64,000 nucleotides of DNA from Halorussus limi. GTDB lineage: Archaea; Halobacteriota; Halobacteria; Halobacteriales; Haladaptataceae. Positions 14,503-26,992 of this stretch are shown here, piece by piece (the stretch's first letter is position 1; each line of letters begins with the position of its first letter). The position numbers and the translations under genes were made by a program. The stretch covers positions 124,001-188,000 of the forward strand of contig NZ_CP096661.1 in the NCBI RefSeq assembly GCF_023238205.1. Reading direction: 5' to 3'. The notes under the pieces were generated by a model. The model was not told the origin of the DNA. It worked only from the letters and a program-made list of their open reading frames with translations, and made no database searches.

Positions 14503-15087
14503 TTAGACCAGCAGCTGAATGTCAGCCTCGGCCATGTCCTGCAACGCCGTCGCGGCACCGACGCCCGTGGTGACGCCGTCGTAGAAGTTCCCCTCGTCGT
14601 AGTCCATCAGGTCAATGGTCATCTGGCAGGCCTGGAACTCGACGCCCATGTCCAGCGAAGTCTCGATGAGTTCCTGGATGGTGGCGGTGTCATTGTCTTC
14701 AATTTGCCGTTCCATCATCTTCGTCGTCACCCGGTCCATACCGGGGAGCGTCGCGATGGCGTTCGGGACGGGCATGTTCGGATTACCGACCGAACTCAGT
14801 TTGAGGTCCTTCGACTTGTCCTCGTGGAGGATGTCGAGTCCCCAGAATGTGTGGAAAACCGTCACGTCCCAGCCGAACGCGGCGGCCGTGCTAGCGAGGA
14901 TGAGCGGCGGATACGCCATGTCGAGCGTCCCCTTCGTTGAAATGATCGACATTTTCTTGGGGCCGTCGTCGACCTCGCTCTTGACCTCGGCGAGTTCCGA
15001 TTCGAGTTCCTCGATACGCGATTCGAGGGTGGCCACGTCGGTCTCCGTCGCACCGTCGGCCGACGCGGAGGGAGCATCCGTACTCAT
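14503..15087 (-). CDS. DsrE2-type sulfur carrier protein (DsrE/DsrF/DrsH-like)
   Basis: 194 residues. After an acidic tail and a coiled coil (about residues 18-42), the DsrE2 core reads MSIISTKGTLDMAYPPLILA, FHTFWGLDIL, MERQIEDN and EFQACQMTIDLM with the conserved cysteine C154. Characterised DsrE2 relatives accept sulfane sulfur at this cysteine and exchange it with TusA. Most DsrE2 are thought to be membrane-associated; here the AYPPLILASTAAAFG stretch is only mildly hydrophobic. It starts two bases after the tusA stop, a clear operon. Confidence 0.85.
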   Translation of the reverse strand: MSTDAPSASADGATETDVATLESRIEELESELAEVKSEVDDGPKKMSIISTKGTLDMAYPPLILASTAAAFGWDVTVFHTFWGLDILHEDKSKDLKLSSVGNPNMPVPNAIATLPGMDRVTTKMMERQIEDNDTATIQELIETSLDMGVEFQACQMTIDLMDYDEGNFYDGVTTGVGAATALQDMAEADIQLLV

Positions 15088-15089
15088 GT

Positions 15090-15332
15090 TTACTCCGTCT
15101 TCCGGACGTAGTGTTTGAACAGGTCGTCGCCCTCCTCTTGGTCGAGCAGTTCGACGCCGTCGGTCGTATCGGCCCAGCCCCCGAGGTCGCTCATGCTACC
15201 GGGGTCGGTCGCGAGGACTTCGAGTACGTCGCCCTCGTCTAGCTGGTCGATGGACTGCTTGGTCTTGACGACGGGCATCGGGCAGTTCTGTCCTTTTACG
15301 TCGAGCGTCTCTGTGACTTCGTACTGAGTCAT
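15090..15332 (-). CDS. tusA: TusA-family sulfurtransferase
   Basis: 80 residues from the ATG at 15332, preferred to a longer unlikely frame. The TusA signature is complete: LDVKGQNCPMPVVKTKQSID with the persulfide-carrying cysteine C17 in CPMP, then LEVLATDPGS, a Met-containing turn and a C-terminal strand. TusA carries sulfur as a protein persulfide between rhodaneses, DsrE proteins and oxidising enzymes. Coupling with dsrE2 matches the known rhodanese-TusA-DsrE2 relay of sulfur oxidisers. A dyad sits immediately before the start codon. Confidence 0.93.
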   Translation of the reverse strand: MTQYEVTETLDVKGQNCPMPVVKTKQSIDQLDEGDVLEVLATDPGSMSDLGGWADTTDGVELLDQEEGDDLFKHYVRKTE

Positions 15333-15357
15333 GATATTGACTTCACTACCCAATACT
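15333..15357 (-). promoter_or_regulatory. dyad AGTATTG-N11-CAATATC abutting the tusA start
   Basis: Read on the minus strand, AGTATTG (15357-15351), eleven bases, then CAATATC (15339-15333); five of seven positions match the perfect dyad arm CAATACT. The second arm touches the ATG of tusA, so a bound protein would cover the initiation region of a leaderless or short-leader transcript and would most simply repress. Confidence 0.5.
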
Positions 15358-15468
15358 AACTCCGGTAGTAAAAGACTATCGGTAGTACCCCGGGAAGCAT
15401 ACACGACCGAACACGCTCTGTATAACACATACGCGTTTAATGGTCTGAAACGACGCTCAAGTCGAACT

Positions 15469-15530: not shown

Positions 15531-16712
15531 ATGACGATGAGTGAAACCGAACCCACTGAAGGGACGGTCGAATCGATCACTCCCGACGAGCTGAAAGAGC
15601 GCATAGATAGCGGTGAAGGCGTTTTCATCCTCGACGCGCGCTCGGAAGGCGACTTCGAGGAGTGGCACATCGACGGTGAGAACGTCGAAATTGTGAACTA
15701 CCCCTACTTCAAACTCCTAGACGGTATCCCGGAAGACCTGCTCGCGGAGCTCCCCGAAGACCGCGAAATCACCGTTCTGTGTGCGAAGGGCGGATCCAGC
15801 GAAATGGTCGCTGTACATCTCGAAGACGAGGGTTACGACGTCAACCACCTCGAATACGGCATGAAGGGCTGGGCGCGCATCTACGAGTACACCGAACTCG
15901 ACACCGAAACGGAGGCGACCATCGCCCAGTACCGCCGCCCCTCCAGCGGCTGTCTGGCTTACCTCGTCGTCTCCGACGGCGAGGCAGCGGTCGTCGACCC
16001 ACTCCGGGCATTCACCGACGAGTACGTACAGGACGCGAACGCGCTCGGTGCTGATTTGAAATACGTGCTCGACACCCACGTCCACGCAGATCATATCTCT
16101 GGACTGCGTAACCTCGCCGATGACACTGACGCGACGGCAGTCATGCCCGAGCCTGCCGTGGAACGTGGTGTCGAATACGACCAGCGCTACGAGACCGTCG
16201 AGGACGCCGACGCGCTCACCGTCGGCGACGTCGAAATCGAGGTCCTCTACACGCCCGGCCACACGACCGGGATGACCTCCTACAAGGTCGGCGACGTGCT
16301 GTTCACCGGCGACGGCCTATTCACCGAGAGCGTGGCCCGCCCCGACCTCGAAGATCCCGAGGCCGCAAAGGACGCGGCGCAGACGCTCTACCAGAGCCTC
16401 ACCGAGAAAATCCTACCCCTGCCCGACGACACCATCGTCGCGCCTGCGCACTTCAGCGACTCGGCAACGCCGAACGACGACGGCACGTACACGGCCGACC
16501 TCGGCGAGCTAGAGGCGACGATGGACGCGCTCACGATGGACGAAGCCGAGTTCGTGGAGTTCATCGTCGCGGACATGCCCCCGCGACCGGCCAACTACGA
16601 GGACATCATCGCCACCAACCTCGGCCAGCAGTCGCCCGACGACGAGGAGGCGTTCGAGTTGGAACTCGGCCCGAACAACTGCGCGGCCAGCGAGGAGGCC
16701 CTGACCGACTAA
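15531..16712 (+). CDS. rhodanese-metallo-beta-lactamase fusion (persulfide-dioxygenase-like), copy 1
   Basis: 393 residues. Residues 15-115 are a rhodanese domain with active-site cysteine C84 in VLCAKGGSS. From 125 on is an ETHE1/glyoxalase-II-like MBL domain with metal ligands HVHADH (H183, H185, D187, H188), H244 in TPGHTTG, D261 in TGDGLF and H307 in APAHF. The pattern with one catalytic iron is typical of persulfide dioxygenases, which oxidise thiol persulfide to sulfite. The domain order, rhodanese first, is the reverse of many bacterial fusions. The tail ends LELGPNNCAAS..., with a cysteine (C384) conserved in both paralogues here. Next gene starts one base after the stop. Confidence 0.88.
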   Translation: MTMSETEPTEGTVESITPDELKERIDSGEGVFILDARSEGDFEEWHIDGENVEIVNYPYFKLLDGIPEDLLAELPEDREITVLCAKGGSSEMVAVHLEDEGYDVNHLEYGMKGWARIYEYTELDTETEATIAQYRRPSSGCLAYLVVSDGEAAVVDPLRAFTDEYVQDANALGADLKYVLDTHVHADHISGLRNLADDTDATAVMPEPAVERGVEYDQRYETVEDADALTVGDVEIEVLYTPGHTTGMTSYKVGDVLFTGDGLFTESVARPDLEDPEAAKDAAQTLYQSLTEKILPLPDDTIVAPAHFSDSATPNDDGTYTADLGELEATMDALTMDEAEFVEFIVADMPPRPANYEDIIATNLGQQSPDDEEAFELELGPNNCAASEEALTD

Positions 16713-16713
16713 G

Positions 16714-17214
16714 ATGAGTGCGCTCACTCCGTTACTCACCGCTAGTGAGCTATTCCCGCGAGGGGTTCTGCCGTATCTCCTTGGCGGACTCCTCGTCGGC
16801 CTCGGGGCCGCGGTCATCTATCTGGCCACGGGCATCATCGCGGGCGCGAGCACGTTCCTCGAATCGACGCTGTCGTACGTCTCGGACGTACCGCGGTTCA
16901 ACCGCTTCAAGTACGTCCGGTCGCGTGGCTGGCGGCTGGTGTTCACCGCTGGCATCGTCAGCGGCGCGGCCGTCTGGGGACTCGTCCTCGCGCCGGACCC
17001 CGGCATCTGGACGACCGACGTCCAGTGGTGGCGATTACTCGGAGGTGGCTTCCTCGTCGGCGTCGGGACGCGACTCGGTAAGGGGTGTACTTCGGGCCAC
17101 GGGGTCTGTGGCACGGGGTCGCTCTCGAACACATCGCTGGTGAACGTCGCCACGTTCCTGACCGTCGCCATCGGAACTGCCCAACTGGTGCAGGCACTGG
17201 GGGTGAGTCCATGA
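16714..17214 (+). CDS. YeeE/YedE sulfur transporter, first half
   Basis: 166 residues with about four membrane helices. The signature loop LGKGCTSGHGVCGTG holds the cysteine that relays thiosulfate or sulfane sulfur in TsuA/YeeE transporters. It begins one base after the rhodanese-MBL stop and ends overlapping the second half by four bases (ATGA). In bacteria such proteins are often single chains of about 350 residues; here, as in many SoxT-like/PmpA-PmpB-like systems, two half-size chains should pair in the membrane. Likely imports thiosulfate or sulfur-bearing thiols. Confidence 0.88.
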   Translation: MSALTPLLTASELFPRGVLPYLLGGLLVGLGAAVIYLATGIIAGASTFLESTLSYVSDVPRFNRFKYVRSRGWRLVFTAGIVSGAAVWGLVLAPDPGIWTTDVQWWRLLGGGFLVGVGTRLGKGCTSGHGVCGTGSLSNTSLVNVATFLTVAIGTAQLVQALGVSP

Positions 17215-17678
17215 CTGGAAACGACCGTAGTCCGTTGTTCCTGCCCGTGATCTACCTCGGCGGGCTGATCTTCGGCTTCGGACTCGCCATCAGCGGGATG
17301 GCCCGCCCGGAGGTCGTACTGGACTTCCTCCAGTTCGACGACTTGGGCCTCCTGTTCGTGATGGGCGGTGCGGCGGTCGTGACCGGTATCACGTTCACGG
17401 TCGCCACGCGGTACCTCGGCGATGCTCCGCTGACCGGCCGGGAGTACACCCGCCGACTCAAGGACTTCGACCGGAACGTCGTCATCGGCGGGGCCATCTT
17501 CGGCGTCGGCTGGGGGCTGTCGGGCATCTGTCCCGGCGCCGCGTACGCCAGTTTCGGAGTCGGCAACTACCCCATCCTGTACGCCGTCGCGGGGATGTTC
17601 CTCGGCGCGTACGCACAGGGGTATTGGCGCGCCCGCCAATCGAACGACGCCGACGCAGCTGACGCCACTTCGGGATAA
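17211..17678 (+). CDS. YeeE/YedE sulfur transporter, second half
   Basis: 155 residues from the ATG at 17211, chosen because it overlaps the upstream stop. About four membrane helices; signature motifs LIFGFGLAISGMARP and GWGLSGICPGAAY, the latter with the conserved cysteine. Complements the first half; both show the G-rich half-helix turns of the family. Translationally coupled, so equal stoichiometry is expected. Confidence 0.88.
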   Translation: MTGNDRSPLFLPVIYLGGLIFGFGLAISGMARPEVVLDFLQFDDLGLLFVMGGAAVVTGITFTVATRYLGDAPLTGREYTRRLKDFDRNVVIGGAIFGVGWGLSGICPGAAYASFGVGNYPILYAVAGMFLGAYAQGYWRARQSNDADAADATSG

Positions 17679-17812
17679 TCCATTTTCGGCGATCTCGCGT
17701 CTATTCACGGTAGTCAGACAAGTTCTTCGACTTACTTCTGCGCTCTCACTGCTCGGAGTACACAACCGAGAGAGCGTCATTAGTAAATTCCCGTAGTGCG
17801 AAATTGGGTCTG

Positions 17813-18181
17813 ATGAGCAAGATTCGTCCCGGTGAACTCGACGACCGCCGTTCGAACGAGGACGTGGTCGTCCTCGATATTCGGCCGCGCGAGGACTACC
17901 AGAGGGACCACATCGAAGGGAGTCACAACGCACCAGTATACGGTGACTTACGCCAGGGTAACACCGGATCACTAGACGACTATCTAGACCAGATTCCGAA
18001 CGACAGTAAAGTGGTCACGGTCTGCAAGGCCGGGGTAGTCGCACAGAAAGCCACTACTCACCTCGAAGAACAGGGGTACGACGCAACGACGCTCAGTGGC
18101 GGGTATACTGGTTGGCGACACTACGCCGAGAATACGCTACTGTATCGTGTGTTATCGACCCTTCGCCGATTTCTGCCCTGA
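17813..18181 (+). CDS. single-domain rhodanese sulfurtransferase
   Basis: 122 residues from the ATG at 17813 (a TTG at 17804 would add three). One rhodanese domain: VVVLDIRPREDYQRDHIEGS, active-site loop VCKAGVVA with C71, and GYDATTLSGGYTGWRHY. A basic amphipathic tail (YRVLSTLRRFLP) might touch the membrane. It sits 134 bases after the YeeE/YedE pair and could load imported sulfur onto a carrier such as TusA; that role is inferred from context. No AGTATTG dyad seen before it. Confidence 0.88.
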   Translation: MSKIRPGELDDRRSNEDVVVLDIRPREDYQRDHIEGSHNAPVYGDLRQGNTGSLDDYLDQIPNDSKVVTVCKAGVVAQKATTHLEEQGYDATTLSGGYTGWRHYAENTLLYRVLSTLRRFLP

Positions 18182-18346
18182 CTGGGTACGCGCTCTCCGA
18201 GCTGAATAGGCGTTCGCCGAAGCACACGTGTTTCTCGTGCGGTTCAGCTGTCGATTGTTAGTGCTAGGGAGAACACCGAGTAGCCGACGGGCATGGGTAT
18301 AGCTATTCGTAACTTATGCATAACAATCAGTAGGTTACGCGAATAT

Positions 18347-18371
18347 AGTATTGTGTTGTGGGTGCAAAACT
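18347..18371 (+). promoter_or_regulatory. dyad AGTATTG-N11-CAAAACT upstream of the small membrane protein and TauE genes
   Basis: AGTATTG (18347-18353), eleven bases, CAAAACT (18365-18371), six of seven matching the perfect arm. It lies about 80 bases before the start at 18449. A second CAATACT occurs at 18424-18430. A TTATTACC TATA-like stretch follows the dyad. Confidence 0.5.
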
Positions 18372-18448
18372 GTTATTACCTTCGGCTGGTTACTCGGTAA
18401 TGTGCAGATATCAATGAAACGCGCAATACTGAAATCGGAGGTTCCGTA

Positions 18449-18598
18449 ATGCTTGGAATCGAGACGCTGGACGGTCCCGCGAGGGCCGTCGCACAAGTCA
18501 GCCTTGTCCTCGCCGAGGCCTTGGTACTCTACGTCGTCTACGGCGGTCTCTCGGCCGCCGTCGGCGACCGAATCACCAACGCGGTTCGAGGAACCTGA
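18449..18598 (+). CDS. 49-residue membrane protein (DUF7512-like) coupled to TauE/SafE
   Basis: A frame of 49 codons: MLGIETLDGPARAVAQVSLV, one hydrophobic helix (SLVLAEALVLYVVYGGL) and a short tail. A GGAGGT ribosome-binding site lies five bases before its ATG, and its stop is two bases before the TauE/SafE start. Small proteins like this precede TauE/SafE genes in other haloarchaea (DUF7512, from memory), suggesting an accessory subunit. Not a fragment: it has its own start, RBS and stop. Confidence 0.65.
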   Translation: MLGIETLDGPARAVAQVSLVLAEALVLYVVYGGLSAAVGDRITNAVRGT

Positions 18599-18600
18599 CC

Positions 18601-19590
18601 ATGGCGATACTCGGAATGAGCGTAGTGACGCTCGCGATGTTCGTCGGGTTCGGCCTGCTCATTGGAACCCTGTTCGGGTTCTTCGGAATGGGCGGCTCGT
18701 TCCTCGTCACCCCGGCGCTCCTCGTGATGGGCTACGAGCCGAAAGTCGCCGTTGGGAGCGGACTCGCGTTCGTCTTCGGGACGAGCGTCATCGGCGCGCT
18801 ACGCCACCGAAATCACGGACAGGTCGACTATAAACTGGCACTGATCATGACGATAGCGATGACACTCGGTATCGAGGGCGGCAAGTACGTCGTCCTCTTC
18901 CTCGAGGAGGCGGGGATATCGGGTATCGTCATCAGCGTGGCGTACGTTGGTCTGTTGGCCGCGGTAGGCCTGCTAACCTTGCGTGATGCCCGTTCGACGG
19001 ACGACGGGGAAGTTAGCTTCGACCTCTCGGAGACGGTCCAGTCGATAGAAATCCCGCCGATGGTCGAGTTGACCGGCGGCGTCCGCGTCTCCGCGGTCAT
19101 CATCTTCGCCGTCGGATTGGCGATCGGCGTCCTGTCGGGCTTCCTCGGCGTTGGCGGCGGATTCCTGCTGATGCCCGCGATGATGTACGGGCTCGGGGTG
19201 CCCGCGGCGGTCGCAGTGGGTACCGACATCCTACAGATCACCATCTCGGGGGCGTTCGGTGCCTTCACCTACGCCCGGACTGGATCCATCGCGCTCCCGG
19301 TTGTCGTCTCGCTGCTAGCTGGGAGTGCCCTCGGTGCTCGCGTCGGGGCGGGCGCGACCAAACTCGTCGACGAGGACGATATCAAGGGCTACTTCGCCGC
19401 GATGCTGCTTGCAGGTAGCGTCGCCGTCGCCTCGAAGAAACTCTCCACCGCCTACGGCATCGAGGTGTTGCAGACGGTGAGTATCGCGCTCATCTTCGGC
19501 GCGGCCGTCCTCGTATCTGGTGCCGTCGTGTTTAGTGCAGTACAGGAACTGCGCGACGAGTCGTCTGCCCGGACGGCCACCGCCGACTGA
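18601..19590 (+). CDS. TauE/SafE-family sulfite/organosulfonate exporter
   Basis: 329 residues, about eight membrane helices. The two-fold repeat typical of the family is visible: LLIGTLFGFFGMGGSFLVTP near the start and GVLSGFLGVGGGFLLMPAMM around residue 175, each followed by an AVxxGT/S segment. Members export sulfite or sulfonates or take up sulfur anions. Beside persulfide oxidation genes, sulfite export is the simplest proposal. Coupled to the small upstream membrane protein. Confidence 0.88.
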   Translation: MAILGMSVVTLAMFVGFGLLIGTLFGFFGMGGSFLVTPALLVMGYEPKVAVGSGLAFVFGTSVIGALRHRNHGQVDYKLALIMTIAMTLGIEGGKYVVLFLEEAGISGIVISVAYVGLLAAVGLLTLRDARSTDDGEVSFDLSETVQSIEIPPMVELTGGVRVSAVIIFAVGLAIGVLSGFLGVGGGFLLMPAMMYGLGVPAAVAVGTDILQITISGAFGAFTYARTGSIALPVVVSLLAGSALGARVGAGATKLVDEDDIKGYFAAMLLAGSVAVASKKLSTAYGIEVLQTVSIALIFGAAVLVSGAVVFSAVQELRDESSARTATAD

Positions 19591-19718
19591 TTACGCTCCG
19601 GTTCAGTCGCCGTTCGACCGACGCGATTCAGTTTTTGTTGCAGTTTGATTCTCTATGTGGGAGTTCGACGACGGACGGACGAAGATAGAGCCGACGAGTT
19701 TAAGAGGGACCATTGCTT

Positions 19719-19743
19719 AGTATTGGGTGTAATGAGCAATACT
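19719..19743 (+). promoter_or_regulatory. perfect dyad AGTATTG-N11-CAATACT at the second rhodanese-MBL gene
   Basis: AGTATTG (19719-19725), eleven bases, CAATACT (19737-19743): both arms are exact inverted copies. The dyad spans the ATG at 19732. A GTTTAAGAG TATA-like box at about 19698 places the transcription start near 19727, inside the dyad. Binding here should block transcription, so the site looks like a repressor operator. Confidence 0.6.
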
Positions 19744-20856
19744 AACTTCGACCCGTCGGAAGTCGCCCGGCGTGTCCGAGAAGACGACGCCGAGGACCTC
19801 TTCGTGCTTGACGTGCGGAACAAGGACGATTACGAGGAGTGGCGTATCGCAGATAGCGAGAACGTGCCCATCTACGACGAACTCCTCGAGTACGACTACT
19901 CGGGGCTAGAGGACAACCTCGACGAACTCCCCGAGGACGAGGAGATCGCAGTAGTCTGCGTCGGCGGTGTCACGTCGGCTCGCGCCGCAGAGTTCCTCCG
20001 CGAACACGGTTACGACGCGAAGTCGGTCGAGGATGGAATGAACGGCTGGGGCCGCGTCCACCGAGAGTACGAGGTCGACGATGTCGACGGTGTCGTTCAG
20101 ATCGTTCGCCCCGGTACGGGCTGTGTCTCGTATCTGGTACACGACGGCGACGAGGCCCTCGTGGTCGACCCGAGCCAGTACGTCGACCAGTACCTGAACG
20201 CGGCCGACGACCGCGACCTCGACATCGTTGGCGTCGCGGACACCCACGCCCACGCCGATCACGTCTCGGGGGCACGCCGCCTCGCCGGCGAACTCGACGT
20301 CCCGTACTACCTCCACGAGGACGACACCGGTGAACTTAACGAGGTCAGTAAAATCGAAGACGGTGAGACGCTCACCGTCGGTGACCGAGACGTCGACGTA
20401 ATCTATACGCCCGGCCACACGCCCGGTAGCGTCTCGTTCGAAGTCGACGATGCGCTCCTCTCGGGAGACACCCTGTTCCTCCGGAGCGTCGGTCGTCCCG
20501 ACCTCGAAGATAGCTCCGAGGACGCTGTTCGAGAAGCCGCCGGTCAGTTGTTCGACAGCCTCGACCGCGTGACCGACCTGGGCGACGCTAAGGTCGTCCT
20601 GCCGGGCCACTTCAGCGACGAGGAGATTCGCCCGCTGGCAACCGAACTCGGGGCGCTTCGGTCAGAGACCGACAACGAACTTGTCGGCTACGTCGAAGAC
20701 GGGGATCAGGAGGCGTTCGTCGAAACCATCGTCGAGAGCCTCTCGGACGAACCTGCGAACTACAACGAAATCAAGCAGATCAACTGGGGTAAAGAGCAAC
20801 CCGGCGGCGACACCGAGGCGCTCGAACTCGGCCCCAACAACTGCGCCGCGAACTAG
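19732..20856 (+). CDS. rhodanese-metallo-beta-lactamase fusion (persulfide-dioxygenase-like), copy 2
   Basis: 374 residues from the ATG at 19732, which lies in the dyad; the longer frame from 19645 has no support. Rhodanese domain residues 5-110 with C76 in VVCVGGVTS; MBL domain with HAHADH (H172, H174, D176, H177), H229 in TPGHTPG, D246 in SGDTLF and H293 in LPGHF. Tail ends LELGPNNCAAN with C371. Same architecture as the copies at 15531 and 25880, but clearly diverged, so an old duplication. It stands alone with its own promoter. Confidence 0.88.
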   Translation: MSNTNFDPSEVARRVREDDAEDLFVLDVRNKDDYEEWRIADSENVPIYDELLEYDYSGLEDNLDELPEDEEIAVVCVGGVTSARAAEFLREHGYDAKSVEDGMNGWGRVHREYEVDDVDGVVQIVRPGTGCVSYLVHDGDEALVVDPSQYVDQYLNAADDRDLDIVGVADTHAHADHVSGARRLAGELDVPYYLHEDDTGELNEVSKIEDGETLTVGDRDVDVIYTPGHTPGSVSFEVDDALLSGDTLFLRSVGRPDLEDSSEDAVREAAGQLFDSLDRVTDLGDAKVVLPGHFSDEEIRPLATELGALRSETDNELVGYVEDGDQEAFVETIVESLSDEPANYNEIKQINWGKEQPGGDTEALELGPNNCAAN

Positions 20857-20940
20857 AGCAGTCCCCTCTCGCAGTACGCAGTCACTTTTTACAGTAACAG
20901 GGACGCTTTTAGAGTGCCGGCAGCCTTGATAACCGGTCAG

Positions 20941-20950
20941 AATATTTAAC
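20941..20950 (+). promoter_or_regulatory. TATA box of the DsbA-like gene
   Basis: AATATTTAAC at 20941-20950 lies about 28 bases before 20973, so transcription should begin within a few bases of the ATG at 20976 (leaderless). No AGTATTG dyad is seen here. Confidence 0.5.
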
Positions 20951-20975
20951 TTCGGCCGGTGTATTTTGTGCACCA

Positions 20976-21722
20976 ATGGATATAAAGAACAAGACTACGC
21001 GGCGCGCACTACTCGGAGCAGTCGGCGCGACGGTCGCCGGGGGCGGTATCGCATACGGCGTTCTCAACCCTCAAGATAATCGAGCGTCTGGTGGCAAGGT
21101 ATCACCGCCAGTATCGGTGAATATGTACCGGAGCGACGCCAAACTGACATCTGGAATCGACCTCGCGAGGAAACCCGTCATGGGGTCGACGGACGCCGAC
21201 CTCGACGTCTACTATTGGAGTGATTTCCAGTGTCCGTTCTGTAACCGGTTCGAGCAGAACACCTTTCCGAAACTGATTCGAGAACACGTCAAAACAGGTG
21301 ACGCACGGGTCGTCTTCATCGAGTTCCCGTACATCGGCGATGCGTCAATGACGGGAGCAGTAGCCGCCAAGTGCGTCTGGCGGCAGGTCCGCGAAGAGTC
21401 GCCGGAGACCTACTGGGCGTGGCACTCGGAGGTATTCGACGCGCAGGAGAAGCCGAACTCCGGATGGCTTACGCGGGAGAAACTCGTGGGCATCGCCGCA
21501 CGCGTCCCTAATCTCGACCGGCAGAAGGTGGAGTCGTGTCTGAGTTCAACCCGGGAATCCTTGGTAAAGGAAGTTCAGGAGGAGATGGCCCGCGCCAAGT
21601 CGTTCGGCGTTCGCGGGACTCCGGCCTTCGTTTTCTACAACCCCCAGACCGAAAAAGCAGGGAAACTAGTCGGGGCACAACCGTACGACCGCTTTCAATC
21701 GGCAATCGAAAACCTCCAGTAA
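20976..21722 (+). CDS. exported DsbA-family thiol oxidoreductase
   Basis: 248 residues. N-terminal Arg-Arg (TTRRALLG) and a glycine/alanine-rich hydrophobic segment (residues 11-30) suggest Tat export, perhaps with membrane anchoring. The thioredoxin-like domain has YYWSDFQCPFCNRFE with C86-PF-C89, an inserted helical domain and the cis-proline VRGTPAFVFYN. CPFC is the DsbA/DsbG-like thioredoxin_4 active site. It would handle disulfides or sulfane sulfur on the outer face. Stop is three bases before the CxxC membrane protein, forming a two-gene unit. Confidence 0.85.
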   Translation: MDIKNKTTRRALLGAVGATVAGGGIAYGVLNPQDNRASGGKVSPPVSVNMYRSDAKLTSGIDLARKPVMGSTDADLDVYYWSDFQCPFCNRFEQNTFPKLIREHVKTGDARVVFIEFPYIGDASMTGAVAAKCVWRQVREESPETYWAWHSEVFDAQEKPNSGWLTREKLVGIAARVPNLDRQKVESCLSSTRESLVKEVQEEMARAKSFGVRGTPAFVFYNPQTEKAGKLVGAQPYDRFQSAIENLQ

Positions 21723-21725
21723 GTT

Positions 21726-22265
21726 ATGACGGGGCAATCCACTGGGCGACGACTGACGACGAGCGCGAGTCGATTGGCGGACGCGCTGCTGTTCCCCGCA
21801 ACGTCGGGCCAGCGATTGGCGCTTGCGGCCGCTATCGCCGGAGTGACATACTTCGTGTTGATCCTTACCACGTTCCCGGAGTACTCGGTACAACTGTTGA
21901 GTGCTGGCGTGAGTTACGTGGATGACGCAGTCATCGCACTAACACAGAACGTTTACCGGACCAACGGGCTAGTCGGTCTTGGACTGGTCTATCTATATGC
22001 GCTGCTGACAGGCATCACAGCCACGAACGCGATAGCGGAAGTTCGACTGGCGGGCGTCTCGCAGTCGAAGGATTTGCTCGGCGTCGCGCCCGGCCTCGTC
22101 GCGTCGGGTTGTGCAAGTTGCGGTGCTGGTCTGCTCGGAGTCCTCGGACTTGCAGGCGTGCTCGCGGCGCTTCCGTTCCACGGGAACCTGGTCCGAGCAG
22201 GTGGCTTGTTGCTGTTACTGTCTTTTCTCGCTCGGTCTGGTGATCCCCGCACGTGTGATGTTTGA
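21726..22265 (+). CDS. membrane protein with a CASC motif, partner of the DsbA-like protein
   Basis: 179 residues with about four membrane helices. A cysteine pair C129-AS-C132 in LVASGCASCGAGLLG sits at the start of a hydrophobic segment, an arrangement reminiscent of membrane electron-transfer proteins (CcdA-, VKOR- or DsbB-like), though no such family is identified. It begins three bases after the DsbA-like gene. I infer that it exchanges electrons or disulfides with that partner. The C-terminus is short (GDPRTCDV). Confidence 0.65.
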   Translation: MTGQSTGRRLTTSASRLADALLFPATSGQRLALAAAIAGVTYFVLILTTFPEYSVQLLSAGVSYVDDAVIALTQNVYRTNGLVGLGLVYLYALLTGITATNAIAEVRLAGVSQSKDLLGVAPGLVASGCASCGAGLLGVLGLAGVLAALPFHGNLVRAGGLLLLLSFLARSGDPRTCDV

Positions 22266-22284
22266 AGCGCCACCTCTGTTTCTC

Positions 22285-22318
22285 AGTATTGTGGAATCTG
22301 CGAAATTCTTTATACGTG
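22285..22318 (+). promoter_or_regulatory. AGTATTG dyad and TATA box before the CoA-disulfide-reductase-like gene
   Basis: AGTATTG (22285-22291), eleven bases, AAATTCT (22303-22309), five of seven matching CAATACT. A TTCTTTATACG box at about 22305-22315 overlaps the second arm and is 22-30 bases from the ATG at 22337. Here the dyad overlaps the upstream edge of the TATA box. Confidence 0.5.
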
Positions 22319-22336
22319 GAGGGCCTATTCTTTCAC

Positions 22337-23683
22337 ATGGAGCAACCCTTCGTCATAGTAGGCGGGGACGCCGCAGGGATGAGCGCCGCAAGTAAAGCGA
22401 AGCGCGAGGACCCAGACCGCGACGTGATCGTCTTCGAGAAGGGCCGGTGGGTTTCATACGCCGCCTGCGGGATGCCGTACTACGTCAAGGGCGAGGTCGA
22501 GGACTTGGACGACCTCGTGTCGCTGACGCCCGAACAGGTCGTCGAGAACCGGAATATCGACCTCCGCACGGACCACGAAGTGGTCGCAATCGACCCCGAG
22601 AGCGAGACCGTCACCGTGTCGGCCGACGGCGAGGAGTTCGAACAGCCGTACGGCGACCTGCTTGTGGCGACCGGCGCCCACGCCGTCGAACCTCCGTTTG
22701 ACGGGATGGACCTTGACGGCGTGTTCACGATTCACGACATGGACGAGGCCGACGCCATCGAGCGCTACGTCACAGAGAACATGCCTGAGACGGCCGCCGT
22801 CGTGGGCGGTGGCTACGTCGGTATCGAGATGGCTGAAGCCCTCTCCGAGCGCGGCGCGACAGTCCACCTCTATGAGATGTTGCCCCACGTCCTCCGACCG
22901 TTCGGCGAGGCGGTCGCCGAGCACGTCGAGGACCACCTCCGCGAGCAGGGTGTGAACCTCTACCTCGACACGCCCGTCTCGGGATTCAAAGGTGAAGACG
23001 CTGTGGCGGCCGTCGAACTCGAAGCTGAGACGGTGCCGGCGGACATCGCCATCGTCGGCGTTGGGGTCGCGCCGAACGTCGAACTCGCTGAGAACGCTAG
23101 CATCGAACTCGGACCGACCGGCGCGATTGCAACCGACGAGTTCGGGCGGACGAACTACGAGAACGTCTACGCGGCAGGCGACTGTGCCGAGGCGACTAAC
23201 GTCGTCACCGGCGAATCTGACCACGTACCCCTCGCCCTTACCGCTAACCGGGCAGGTCGGGCCATCGGTCAGACCGTCACCGGGACGCCGACCCGCGTCG
23301 GCGAGATCGCCGGGACGGCTATCGTGAAGGCGTTTGACCTCGGTGCAGCTCGAACCGGAATCGTAGACAAAGAGGCCGCTCGCGAGGCCGGATTCGACCC
23401 CGTCTCGGTAACAATTACGGACGAAACCCGCGCGGACTACTATCCCGGTGCGGAGGAATTGACCGCTACCCTCCTTGCCGACCGCGGGACGGGGAAGGTC
23501 CTTGGCGGAAGCGTCGTCGGGCGCGAGGGAGCCAAGCGGATCGACACGGTTGCGACCGCGCTCCACGCCGAGATGACCGTGACCGAACTCCAGAATCTAG
23601 ACCTCGCGTACGCACCCCCGTTCAGTCCGGTATGGGACCCGATTCTCACCGCTGCAAAGGTCCTCGGCGGTAAACTAGAGTGA
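22337..23683 (+). CDS. CoA-disulfide / persulfide reductase-like flavoprotein
   Basis: 448 residues from the ATG at 22337, chosen because the TATA box lies just upstream. FAD motif VIVGGDAAGM, single redox cysteine C44 in SYAACGMPYY, NAD(P)-binding VVGGGYVGIEMAEAL, NVYAAGDCAEATN, and a C-terminal dimerisation domain with AYAPPFSPVWDP. A lone N-terminal cysteine marks the CoA-disulfide reductase/NADH oxidase/Npsr group, which reduce CoA-disulfide, persulfides or polysulfide. The C-terminal rhodanese of some relatives is absent. Followed six bases later by an M20 peptidase. Confidence 0.87.
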   Translation: MEQPFVIVGGDAAGMSAASKAKREDPDRDVIVFEKGRWVSYAACGMPYYVKGEVEDLDDLVSLTPEQVVENRNIDLRTDHEVVAIDPESETVTVSADGEEFEQPYGDLLVATGAHAVEPPFDGMDLDGVFTIHDMDEADAIERYVTENMPETAAVVGGGYVGIEMAEALSERGATVHLYEMLPHVLRPFGEAVAEHVEDHLREQGVNLYLDTPVSGFKGEDAVAAVELEAETVPADIAIVGVGVAPNVELAENASIELGPTGAIATDEFGRTNYENVYAAGDCAEATNVVTGESDHVPLALTANRAGRAIGQTVTGTPTRVGEIAGTAIVKAFDLGAARTGIVDKEAAREAGFDPVSVTITDETRADYYPGAEELTATLLADRGTGKVLGGSVVGREGAKRIDTVATALHAEMTVTELQNLDLAYAPPFSPVWDPILTAAKVLGGKLE

Positions 23684-23689
23684 TTAACG

Positions 23690-24970
23690 GTGGCGACTCC
23701 GACATCCATCGTCGACGGTCTCGTCGACGATCCTGCTTCCCTCGTCGACGTAGCGCTCGAACTACTTACGGTGGACACGTCAAATCCGCCGGGCGACACC
23801 CGCGAAATTGTCGCCCTGCTGGAGTCGTATCTCGCCGACTCCGATATAAAAACCCAGCAGTTCGCGGTTGACGAGTCGAAGCCGAACCTGCTGGCGACGA
23901 GACCCGGTAAACGCGAGACAACGCTACTGTTTACCGGCCACCTCGACACCATTCCGTACGACGAAGAGGCGTGGACACACGACCCATTGGGCGAGAGAGC
24001 GGGCGACCGAATCTACGGCCGTGGAGCGACCGACATGAAAGGGGCGGTCGCCGCGATGCTGATGGTCGCCCGCGCATTCGCAGAGGAGGACGAGCGACCT
24101 CCGGTCACACTTCAATTTGCGTTCGTCAGCGATGAGGAGGTTGCAGGTGACGCCGGATTACCCGCGTTGCTCGACGTCGGACACCTCGACGCTGACGCCT
24201 GCGTCATCGGTGAACCGACCTGCGAGCGCGGCCGCCACTCGGTCACCGTCGCGGACAGAGGGAGCATCTGGCTGACGCTTGAAGCGACCGGCGAAGCCGC
24301 TCACGGCTCGCGTCCGATGCTCGGCCGGAACGCCATCGATCGGCTTTGGGCTGCCGTCGAAGCGGTTCGGACCCAGCTTCGGGAGCGCGACCTCTCGCTA
24401 CCTTCCGCGGTCGAGCAAATCGTCGACGAGTCCGTCGAGTACTACGCACCGTCGATGGGTGCAGACACCGCGAGACGTCTATTTACGCACCCAACTGTCA
24501 ACTTGGGCATCATCGAGGGCGGTGAGAGCGTCAATACGGTCCCCCAAACGGCGCGGGCGCAACTCGACGTCCGCCTCACGGCCGGCGTCGACACGGAAGC
24601 AGTGCTGGCCGACGTTCGAGACTGCATCGTTAATCACGAGGGCGTCACCGTCGCCGACGTCTCCTGGAGCGTCGGCACCTACGAGAACCTTGCGAGTCCC
24701 CTCGTCGAGTCCGTGGCTGCGACCGCGGAGGACGTTACAGGTGACCGCATCTACCGGCGGAGCGCGACCGGCGGTGGGGACGCCAAGACGCTTCGCAACG
24801 CCGGCGTACCGACAGTCGAGTTCGCGCTGGGTACCGACACGGTCCACGCGCCAGACGAGTACATCACGATCGACGCACTCCTCGATAACACACGGGTATA
24901 CGCCGGATTACCGAGCGCCTTCGCCACGGCAGTCGACGAATCGTCAGACAACTCCGTACAAAGAGGATAG
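23690..24970 (+). CDS. M20-family metallopeptidase (ArgE/DapE/ACY1-like)
   Basis: 426 residues from a GTG at 23690. Two-zinc amidohydrolase motifs: LLFTGHLDTIP, IYGRGATDMKGAVAAM, VSDEEVAGDAG, CVIGEPT, the dimerisation domain with AAHGSRP, and a terminal TVHAPDEYI histidine. The family removes acyl or aminoacyl groups from small amides and dipeptides. The tight link with the disulfide reductase suggests a thiol-containing amide, for example a gamma-glutamylcysteine or acyl-cysteine derivative, but this is speculation; a nutritional deacylase is possible. Confidence 0.82.
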   Translation: MATPTSIVDGLVDDPASLVDVALELLTVDTSNPPGDTREIVALLESYLADSDIKTQQFAVDESKPNLLATRPGKRETTLLFTGHLDTIPYDEEAWTHDPLGERAGDRIYGRGATDMKGAVAAMLMVARAFAEEDERPPVTLQFAFVSDEEVAGDAGLPALLDVGHLDADACVIGEPTCERGRHSVTVADRGSIWLTLEATGEAAHGSRPMLGRNAIDRLWAAVEAVRTQLRERDLSLPSAVEQIVDESVEYYAPSMGADTARRLFTHPTVNLGIIEGGESVNTVPQTARAQLDVRLTAGVDTEAVLADVRDCIVNHEGVTVADVSWSVGTYENLASPLVESVAATAEDVTGDRIYRRSATGGGDAKTLRNAGVPTVEFALGTDTVHAPDEYITIDALLDNTRVYAGLPSAFATAVDESSDNSVQRG

Positions 24971-25055
24971 AAGGGAACGTAGCTGAGACTGTACTTGAGG
25001 GCTCAATGTACGACCAACGGGGGTAATCGATCAGGTGCCGGCAGAATACAGAACT

Positions 25056-25790
25056 TCAGTCGGCGCTCTGTCCGTGTGAACTCGCCTGATCCACCCGTAG
25101 AGGGTTCGTCGACGAGGCCGCGGTCACCAACCGCAGGAACTGACCTGCGTTCGTGAGAAGTTTGTTCTCTGCCTTCCGGAGATGCTCCTCATACGTCGAA
25201 CGGGCTACTGACGTTTGCTCCGCTAACTCGCGGAGCGACGTCTGGCGCGGTTGCTCGTAGTACCCACTTTCTAAGGCCAATCGTAGTGCCGCTAACTGCC
25301 GGTCCGTTATATCCTCAAATAACTGGTCAACCGGGGCCAGCATACTGTGCGGGATCTGTTGTTCCGTGATGGCGGTTTTAGAGAGAACTTCGATATCGCG
25401 GTCTGCCTCTAAGTCCCGAAGCAGGGCTCTAACGTCCGCTTCGTCGAACGCAATCACCGTGTAGTGTTCCCACCCCTGGCGGTGGATGGTCGGTGGTTGA
25501 TAGAGACAGTTGTGCTCCTCGAACCGGTCGATGATAGACTCCTCGAGTGAACAGAGGCAGGACTGGGTAACTATGTTCAGACCTGAATCATCCATCGTCT
25601 TGTGAAGAATCGTCCCTATACGGTTGATCTCCTCAAGCAGTTCCTCGGTCGGTGCCTCTGACGAGCTAATTTCCAGTACTTGGCAGTCACTCAGGTACCA
25701 CTCCCGTATCGTGAGGTCCGGAAAGTGTTCTGAAATCTCCCGATACGGGCATTCGTGTTTCACCCGGAACGAGGCTTCGTACAGACTCAT
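25056..25790 (-). CDS. Bat-type HTH_10 transcriptional regulator
   Basis: 244 residues from the ATG at 25790 (MSLYEASFRVKHECPYREIS); a frame from 25841 would start inside a palindrome. Residues 1-155 resemble the haloarchaeal sensory half of these regulators, with cysteines at C14, C36, C93, C95 and C110. The C-terminal HTH_10 reads ITDRQLAALRLALESGYYEQ, TSLRELAEQTSVARSTYEEHLRKAENKLL. It is divergent from the third rhodanese-MBL gene with a 20-base palindrome between, so it probably controls that gene. The Cys-rich sensor part could respond to sulfur or redox state (inference). Confidence 0.85.
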   Translation of the reverse strand: MSLYEASFRVKHECPYREISEHFPDLTIREWYLSDCQVLEISSSEAPTEELLEEINRIGTILHKTMDDSGLNIVTQSCLCSLEESIIDRFEEHNCLYQPPTIHRQGWEHYTVIAFDEADVRALLRDLEADRDIEVLSKTAITEQQIPHSMLAPVDQLFEDITDRQLAALRLALESGYYEQPRQTSLRELAEQTSVARSTYEEHLRKAENKLLTNAGQFLRLVTAASSTNPLRVDQASSHGQSAD

Positions 25791-25821
25791 ACGAGAGTAT
25801 TGGACCTCGTCCGGATTAACG

Positions 25822-25841
25822 GTGCCGGTCATGACCGGCAC
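25822..25841. promoter_or_regulatory. perfect 20-base palindrome between divergent genes
   Basis: GTGCCGGTCA followed directly by its exact reverse complement TGACCGGCAC. It lies 32 bases before the regulator start (25790) and 38 before the rhodanese-MBL start (25880), next to a CCTATATTC TATA-like box at about 25845. An AGTATTG also occurs at 25796-25802 without a good second arm. A dimeric operator is the obvious reading. Confidence 0.55.
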
Positions 25842-25879
25842 TACCTATATTCAAACACCGACCTTACTGGTAATCACAG

Positions 25880-26992
25880 ATGACGGAGATCAGTCCGAAC
25901 GAACTCAGTGAACGATTACAGACCGACGAGGAGGACGTCCTAGTTCTCGATATTCGGCACGAAGAGGACTACGACGATTGGCACATCCCCGGTAGCATCA
26001 ACGTAGACGTCTACGATCGACTAACCGACGATCCGTATGCGGCAAAGGATGCTCTCAAGGAACTCCCTGACGGAAAGGAGATCGTCACCGTCTGTGCCGC
26101 TGGCGTCGCCTCACAGAGTGCGACCGATATCCTCCTCGAGATGGGATACGATGCTACGACGCTCACAGACGGGATGAACGGGTGGAGTCGTGTCCACCGG
26201 TCCGCATCAGTTCCAGCTGACCTCGACGGCACGTTCATACAGGTCGCACGGCCTGGGAAGGGTTGTCTCTCTCACGTCCTCATTTCAGAGGGCGAAGCTA
26301 CCGTGTTCGACCCCTCTCAGTACATCGAGGAGTACGACGAGATTCTCAGCGACCACGACGCCGAACTCGTCGGTGTCTTCGATACGCATGCCCATGCAGA
26401 TCACGTCTCTGGAGCTGCGGAACTCGCCAACCGTCACAGTGTTCCGTACTACCTCCACCCGAAGGACGCGCTCGCCATCGATGCGACGCCCCTTGAAGAT
26501 GGGCAGACCGTTACCGTCGGCAGTCTCGATATCGAGGTCATCCACACGCCGGGACACAGCGAAGGGAGTGTCTCGTTCGATATCGACGGGGCAGCCCTGA
26601 TTACGGGCGACACGCTCTTTCACGACAGCGTGGGACGCGTCGAACTCGGCGTCGAAGCGGGGATTGAAGATTCCGACGTGGAGGAGAACGCTGCGACGCT
26701 CTACGAGAGCCTTCAGCGGTTGCTTGACCGGTCGGACGACACTCTCGTCTTGCCAGCACACGACCCCGGTTCACCAGAACCGCCGGTGACTGCAACCCTC
26801 GGTGAGGTCAGGGAACGGAATGAGGATCTCGGCCGTGGTCGTGAGGAATTCGTCGCGGAACTCGCTTCCGATATCCCGGATCATCCGCCGAACTTCGAGC
26901 GCGTCAAGCGGACGAATGTGGGACAGGAATCGGTTCCCGCCGACGAACTGGCCGAACTCGAACTGGGTCCGAACAACTGTGCAGCCGAATAA
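25880..26992 (+). CDS. rhodanese-metallo-beta-lactamase fusion (persulfide-dioxygenase-like), copy 3
   Basis: 370 residues. Rhodanese domain residues 1-105 with C72 in TVCAAGVAS; MBL domain with HAHADH (H170, H172, D174, H175), H226 in TPGHSEG, D244 in TGDTLF and H294 in LPAHD. Differs from the other copies in having a short insert after VGRVELG and LPAHD in place of (P/A)(G/A)HF. Ends LELGPNNCAAE with C367. Followed after three bases by an MFS carrier and divergent from the Bat-type regulator, so it forms a regulated two-gene unit. Confidence 0.88.
   Translation: MTEISPNELSERLQTDEEDVLVLDIRHEEDYDDWHIPGSINVDVYDRLTDDPYAAKDALKELPDGKEIVTVCAAGVASQSATDILLEMGYDATTLTDGMNGWSRVHRSASVPADLDGTFIQVARPGKGCLSHVLISEGEATVFDPSQYIEEYDEILSDHDAELVGVFDTHAHADHVSGAAELANRHSVPYYLHPKDALAIDATPLEDGQTVTVGSLDIEVIHTPGHSEGSVSFDIDGAALITGDTLFHDSVGRVELGVEAGIEDSDVEENAATLYESLQRLLDRSDDTLVLPAHDPGSPEPPVTATLGEVRERNEDLGRGREEFVAELASDIPDHPPNFERVKRTNVGQESVPADELAELELGPNNCAAE

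Follow-up and report, generated by a model that had tools for sequence, protein, structure and literature searches.

A conserved C-terminal cysteine tail in the rhodanese–metallo-β-lactamase fusions of Halorussus limi and their relatives

Known persulfide dioxygenases and the Halorussus limi fusions

Type I persulfide dioxygenases (PDOs) depend on a cysteine near the C terminus (C247 in hETHE1, C235 in AtETHE1, C224 in AcPDO, and C223 in MxPDO), which is essential and appears as a sulfinic acid in human and Arabidopsis crystals (PMC6060420). The mono-iron ligands of AcPDO are H57, H113, and D130 (PMC6060420). In Bacillus licheniformis, the product of yrkH, a gene of a yrk/cst-type sulfane-sulfur operon, has been called “likely a second PDO” and was not assayed alone (PMC9918477). 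Here, we describe three fusions of the YrkH kind, in which a rhodanese is followed by a metallo-β-lactamase (MBL) domain, and a short C-terminal tail with a cysteine that all of them share. They are encoded in a 64,000-nucleotide stretch of the Halorussus limi genome (GCF_023238205.1, contig NZ_CP096661.1, positions 124,001–188,000 of the forward strand; hereafter the window, to whose positions the coordinates below refer). A literature search returned no paper on haloarchaeal PDOs, none containing the letters of the tail motif, and none describing the tail; as far as that literature shows, the tail is a real and previously undescribed signature, and the enzymes that bear it are of a known kind.

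The three copies and their tails are as follows:

15531..16712, + strand: rhodanese-MBL fusion copy 1 (P0001, 393 aa), rhodanese C84, tail C384
16659..16688, + strand: copy 1 tail LELGPNNCAA, then SEEALTD (C384 codon 16680-16682)
19732..20856, + strand: rhodanese-MBL fusion copy 2 (P0002, 374 aa), tail C371
20821..20850, + strand: copy 2 tail LELGPNNCAA (C371 codon 20842-20844)
25880..26992, + strand: rhodanese-MBL fusion copy 3 (P0003, 370 aa), rhodanese C72, C129 at the start of the MBL domain, tail C367
26957..26986, + strand: copy 3 tail LELGPNNCAA (C367 codon 26978-26980)

A first-pass annotation of this DNA had claimed that three otherwise diverged copies end in LELGPNNCAA followed by S, N, or E, with cysteines C384, C371, and C367, and translation of the three open reading frames (ORFs) confirms these ends. 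The divergence is as it described: pairwise identity among the copies is 41–47%, yet the ten consecutive tail residues are identical. Given that ~29% of the columns are invariant among the three, we estimate the chance of such a run of ten at ~4e-6 per position. The alignment also contains, in all three copies, the rhodanese cysteine and the MBL metal ligands that the annotation had named, the latter being the ETHE1-type iron ligands H170, H226, and D244 (residue numbers here and below are those of copy 3, unless another protein is given), which are the equivalents of the three AcPDO ligands.

Conservation of the tail cysteine

In the 4.6-Mb genome, a degenerate DNA pattern for GPNNCA has five matches (its reversed control has none), and all five are the C-terminal ends of full-length rhodanese-MBL fusions, three on the 311-kb contig and two on the 3.58-Mb contig C1 (L023 and L024, outside the window, at C1:1900803-1901927 and C1:2223366-2224508). 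The tail DNA pattern occurs in 377 of 391 haloarchaeal genomes, with almost no matches for the reversed control. Because a search based on the motif ([LI]ELGPNNC) is circular, we used a tail-free alignment (A5) as the query, and found matches in all 59 genomes of the class that were searched, nearly all of them full-length fusions. We inspected the ends of 89 ORFs, comprising the best match from ~30 genomes and the 60 lowest-scoring matches. All 87 intact haloarchaeal ORFs, detected without regard to the tail, have the cysteine (79 as GxNxCA and eight as GPNNCSA), and the two exceptions are an ORF truncated by a contig edge (L197) and a frameshifted one whose intact tail lies in another frame (L153). 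The tail-free alignment thus rules out that the conservation is an artifact of motif-based searching. The tail motif was not found in the stand-alone haloarchaeal MBL relatives (L026–L028).

The tail extends to bacteria. When the tail-free search was extended to the phyla to which a Chloroflexus and an Ignavibacteria genome belong, it recovered fusions ending in GKNICA, GANRCA, GGNRCA, or GPNRCA, and relatives from Bacillota end in GPNRCAV or GPNRCAI. Aligning 195 fusions with the rhodanese ahead of the MBL domain, drawn from Halobacteria, Chloroflexota, Bacillota, and other phyla, shows C367 and E361 in 195 of 195 sequences each, and G363 and N365 in 191 of 195 each. For comparison, the rhodanese C72 is found in 193/193, and the iron ligands H170, H226, and D244 in 193/194, 194/194, and 195/195, respectively, and the tail glutamate and cysteine are therefore conserved at the level of the iron ligands. 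Nowhere among the 195 sequences do Ser, Ala, or Val take the place of C367. The only cysteine columns with >10% occupancy in a 175-sequence alignment are C72, C129, and C367; C129 is present in 181/194 sequences and is Asp in 13/194, all of which keep C367. The wider alignment that the first-pass annotation had proposed as a check thus goes in its favor, and its suggestion of a functional thiol is strongly supported by a cysteine that is invariant in sequences of many phyla, even where neighboring tail residues have changed. The more specific roles that it offered for the thiol, a resolving cysteine or a mobile arm between the rhodanese site and the iron, are conjectural.

In three haloarchaeal fusions (L199, L201, and L202), the rhodanese part is separated from the MBL part by an insert, which splits the profile match at about positions 138–150. 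Another fusion (L063), on a contig of a Candidatus Bipolaricaulota metagenome-assembled genome (isolate GSL_CB2_3), is nested among haloarchaeal sequences in the tree, and either gene transfer or a mis-binned contig may account for it. A coupling between K364 and Asp at position 129 was considered and found unconvincing, as K364 occurs with C129 too (3/12).

Fold and structural relatives

Pfam assigns an N-terminal rhodanese and Lactamase_B to these proteins. No NCBIfam family scores above its cut-off, and Blh (NF040641, bifunctional sulfur transferase/dioxygenase) gives 54–60 bits against a curated cut-off of 625. AlphaFold (AF2) models were obtained for copy 3 (predicted local distance difference test [pLDDT] 93, predicted template modeling score [pTM] 0.91) and copy 1 (pLDDT 92, pTM 0.89). 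With Foldseek and VIA-align, both models have as their top matches 3tp9, 3r2u (CstB), 4chl (human ETHE1), 4ysb (MxPDO), and 5ve3 (BpPRF), at Z 29–31, and glyoxalase II structures fall below the PDOs, at Z 21–22. The proteins combine the rhodanese-MBL order, full-length alignment, ExGxNxCA tail, and sulfane-sulfur operon of the YrkH type; as judged from these features, they are PDO-like (ETHE1/CstB-like MBL) fusions of the YrkH kind, which would bind iron and act as dioxygenases. With YrkH and its Bacillota relatives they share domain order, length, and tail (MEIGPNRCAVR in Lysinibacillus, GPNRCAIW in a B. subtilis plasmid copy), although identity between YrkH and copy 3 is 34% and haloarchaea often have several diverged copies.

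With ETHE1, AcPDO, MxPDO, and PRF (BpPRF), the fusions have in common the MBL fold, the H-H-D mono-iron ligands (Z ~29–30), and a cysteine near the C terminus (essential in the PDOs). However, the essential cysteine of type I PDOs (C247/C224) lies in PANxxCG, which the fusions do not have, the HDYxG loop of ETHE1 is missing from the fusions, and the known types have no N-terminal rhodanese. We considered the tail cysteine as the positional equivalent of ETHE1 C247 and rejected this. The structural alignment to 4ysb ends at MxPDO 225, which is P0003 351 and P0001 368, and the position of MxPDO C223 and ETHE1 C247 is ~Q349 in P0003 and ~Q366 in P0001, a position that is variable in the family. 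It lies 18 residues before the tail cysteine in two independent models, although both could still be close in space. An extra helix (354–360 in P0003) precedes the tail cysteine. In the models, this cysteine belongs to an added C-terminal segment and is a feature in its own right. A DSSP bridge at A368 and an extra bridge residue, G252 (beside R253), in the copy 3 model were considered as hints of an active-site location and given no weight, because the copy 1 model does not reproduce them.

Loop and tail cysteines are mutually exclusive in most sequences

CstB and the Alicyclobacillus protein 3tp9 (MBL-rhodanese-rhodanese) provide the best MBL fold matches (Z ~31), and share with the fusions the iron-ligand pattern and the presence of both kinds of enzyme domain in one chain. 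In these proteins, however, the domain order is reversed: the CstB type has its MBL domain first and its rhodanese C-terminal, whereas the fusions have an N-terminal rhodanese. They also mostly have HxHxDF instead of HxHxDH, and they have a loop cysteine and no tail cysteine. Across CstB-like proteins (MBL, then one or two rhodaneses) and stand-alone relatives, a GSxCG-type loop cysteine follows the last active-site histidine in 45 of 45 sequences (as in PAHGAGSACGK; CstB C201), and the tail cysteine was found in none of these 45. Conversely, a cysteine anywhere in this loop occurs in only three of the 195 tail-bearing fusions and is absent from 192, including all three copies in the window. 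Neither cysteine is present in the ETHE1-type PRF and Blh examples. The position of CstB C201 fits the 3r2u alignment if a 24-residue tag is assumed.

The MBL tree places the two architectures on opposite sides of a single branch (Shimodaira–Hasegawa approximate likelihood ratio test [SH-aLRT] 93), and the loop/tail swap therefore happened once, not many times. The hairpin at the start of the MBL domain contains Q121 and R124, which are 100% conserved on the tail-bearing side, as against 23% and 4%, respectively, on the other side, and which are candidates for holding E361. Because the tail cysteine is in all of the rhodanese-then-MBL fusions and absent from the examined MBL-then-rhodanese and stand-alone MBL relatives, the sequences support a role that is tied to the former architecture.

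On a Thiothrix plasmid (L282:2653-4080), immediately after a fusion of an ArsR-type regulator and a rhodanese comes a stand-alone, CstB-like MBL protein that has the loop cysteine and lacks the tail.

Gene neighborhood

The three copies are interspersed with genes of a sulfane-sulfur island:

14503..15087, − strand: DsrE2-like protein (PF13686), candidate sulfane-sulfur carrier of the island
15090..15326, − strand: TusA (PF01206) sulfur carrier
16714..17214, + strand: YeeE/YedE-type sulfur transporter half (PF04143)
17211..17678, + strand: second YeeE-type half (DUF6691/PF04143)
17804..18181, + strand: single-domain rhodanese, tail cysteine motif absent
18601..19590, + strand: TauE/SafE-family (sulfite) exporter (PF01925)
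20976..21722, + strand: DsbA/thioredoxin-like protein
22262..23683, + strand: FAD/NAD pyridine nucleotide-disulfide oxidoreductase with a CGMPYY motif
25056..25841, − strand: HVO_A0563-N + HTH_10 regulator, divergent from copy 3

The CGMPYY motif of the oxidoreductase is similar to that of CoA-disulfide/persulfide reductases. The island resembles the YrkH operon in its DsrE, rhodanese, TusA, and TauE neighbors. In Lysinibacillus, Niallia, and Paenibacillus, the fusion gene likewise lies among genes for TusA, DsrE, TauE, and a CsoR/CstR-like regulator, and in most cases a rhodanese gene. The haloarchaeal island differs in adding the YeeE pair, and no CstR-like regulator, such as Bacillota have, was identified beside the fusions in the window. 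The DsrE2 and TusA genes (14503-15428) are divergent from copy 1 (fusion stretch 15531-20856), and these sulfane-sulfur carriers and the first fusion may have a shared control region.

Possible roles of the tail cysteine

The reading that we favor, tentatively and at somewhat less than an even chance, is that the tail thiol presents sulfur from the rhodanese to the iron and replaces the loop cysteine. For it speak the invariance of C367 and E361, the complementary distribution of the loop and tail cysteines, the single branch between the two architectures, Q121 and R124 on the tail-bearing side, the PDO-like fold, and the sulfur genes beside the fusions. Rhodanese C72 would take sulfane sulfur from the carriers of the island (TusA, DsrE2, and the free rhodanese) and pass it to C367, which would present a protein-bound persulfide to the iron (H170/H226/D244). 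There, O2 would oxidize the persulfide to sulfite, to be exported by TauE. In this way, the tail cysteine would fill the role that falls, in CstB-like enzymes, to the cysteine of the loop adjoining the last active-site histidine (CstB C201). The direction and order of the transfer, the location of the tail, and its swinging between the domains are what we infer from this arrangement. Because haloarchaea and Bacilli are not known to have glutathione, and because the HDYxG loop of ETHE1 is missing, it is reasonable that a protein thiol could replace glutathione. A more specific version, in which C367 is a persulfide arm particular to rhodanese-MBL fusions that collects sulfur from the rhodanese cysteine within the same chain and delivers it into the iron pocket, seems to us somewhat unlikely.

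Several points weigh against sulfur presentation to the iron. The tail has only moderate pLDDT values (72 and 65 in the two models), C129 is nearly as conserved as C367 and is a possible alternative partner of the tail, and the loop/tail swap is a single evolutionary split, with no repeated events. We found no member of the family that has been assayed, YrkH having been called a likely second PDO. Finally, the tail thiol is kept where ordinary dioxygenase chemistry is doubtful. Four second-copy fusion paralogs from Chloroflexus-like genomes (L271–L274) have lost H172, D174, H175, and H294, along with the G and N of the tail, but retain C72 and C367, and the three iron ligands remain in three of the four. 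The lost residues align with H59, D61, H62, and H171 of AcPDO, of which the alanine variants are inactive, except for H59A, with 6.6% activity (PMC6060420). The paralogs are likely pseudo-dioxygenases, as far as their substitutions indicate. Since C72 and C367 outlive the other active-site residues in them, a connection with the rhodanese is favored, and any iron-only story calls for caution.

A structural or redox-regulatory role for the tail cysteine, like that proposed for the near-terminal cysteine of type I PDOs (AcPDO C224, hETHE1 C247), is in our view unlikely; the thiol would then pair (most likely with C129) or be modified by a small thiol, and would protect or switch the enzyme without carrying substrate sulfur. 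C129 is the only near-invariant cysteine besides C72, and in AcPDO the essential C224 is partly disulfide-bonded to C87 and has been considered unlikely to participate directly in the reaction (PMC6060420). However, the corresponding residues of MxPDO and ETHE1 map 18 residues before the tail cysteine, and no fixed C129–C367 pair is needed, because C129 is Asp in 13 sequences with C367. DsrC acts in trans between proteins and has at its C terminus a segment whose near-terminal cysteine is invariant and probably carries sulfur; its swinging arm is not homologous to the tail and offers a mere analogy. By that analogy, the tail cysteine might serve the rhodanese site only, resolving or accepting the rhodanese persulfide or exchanging sulfur with TusA/DsrE, with no direct role at the iron. 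We consider this quite unlikely, even though TusA and DsrE are constant neighbors, the tail cysteine always accompanies an N-terminal rhodanese and never occurs in the examined MBL-first or stand-alone proteins, and, in the Chloroflexota paralogs, whose second shell has decayed, C72 and C367 survive while the GxN of the tail is lost. It leaves unexplained both why the loop cysteine is absent exactly where the tail is present and why the G and N of the tail are lost together with active-site residues. The near-perfect conservation of E361, G363, and N365, which matches that of the cysteine, would also suit a folding or dimer-contact element (through packing of E361 and GxN) in which the cysteine does no redox work, and C-terminal extensions do build the PaPDO dimer (PMC12856154). 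This is very unlikely, however, given that the four paralogs without G363 and N365 still keep the cysteine and that C367 is never Ser, Ala, or Val.

Implications

In practical terms, the terminal ExGxNxCA is a simple annotation signature that separates YrkH-type fusions from CstB-type fusions and hydrolases, all of which are now lumped as “MBL fold metallo-hydrolase.” The findings bear on how substrate is delivered to PDOs and on the function of the near-terminal cysteine in ETHE1. Here, the family offers a third placement of a critical thiol, in a tail as opposed to ETHE1 C247 or the CstB loop C201, and one that is perfectly conserved in our sample and readily mutated. If the persulfide arm is real, it would stand in for the free thiol co-substrate, which in ETHE1 is glutathione, as well as for CstB's fixed loop cysteine, and the sulfane sulfur being oxidized would always be protein-bound. 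Such an arm would make sense in organisms without glutathione.

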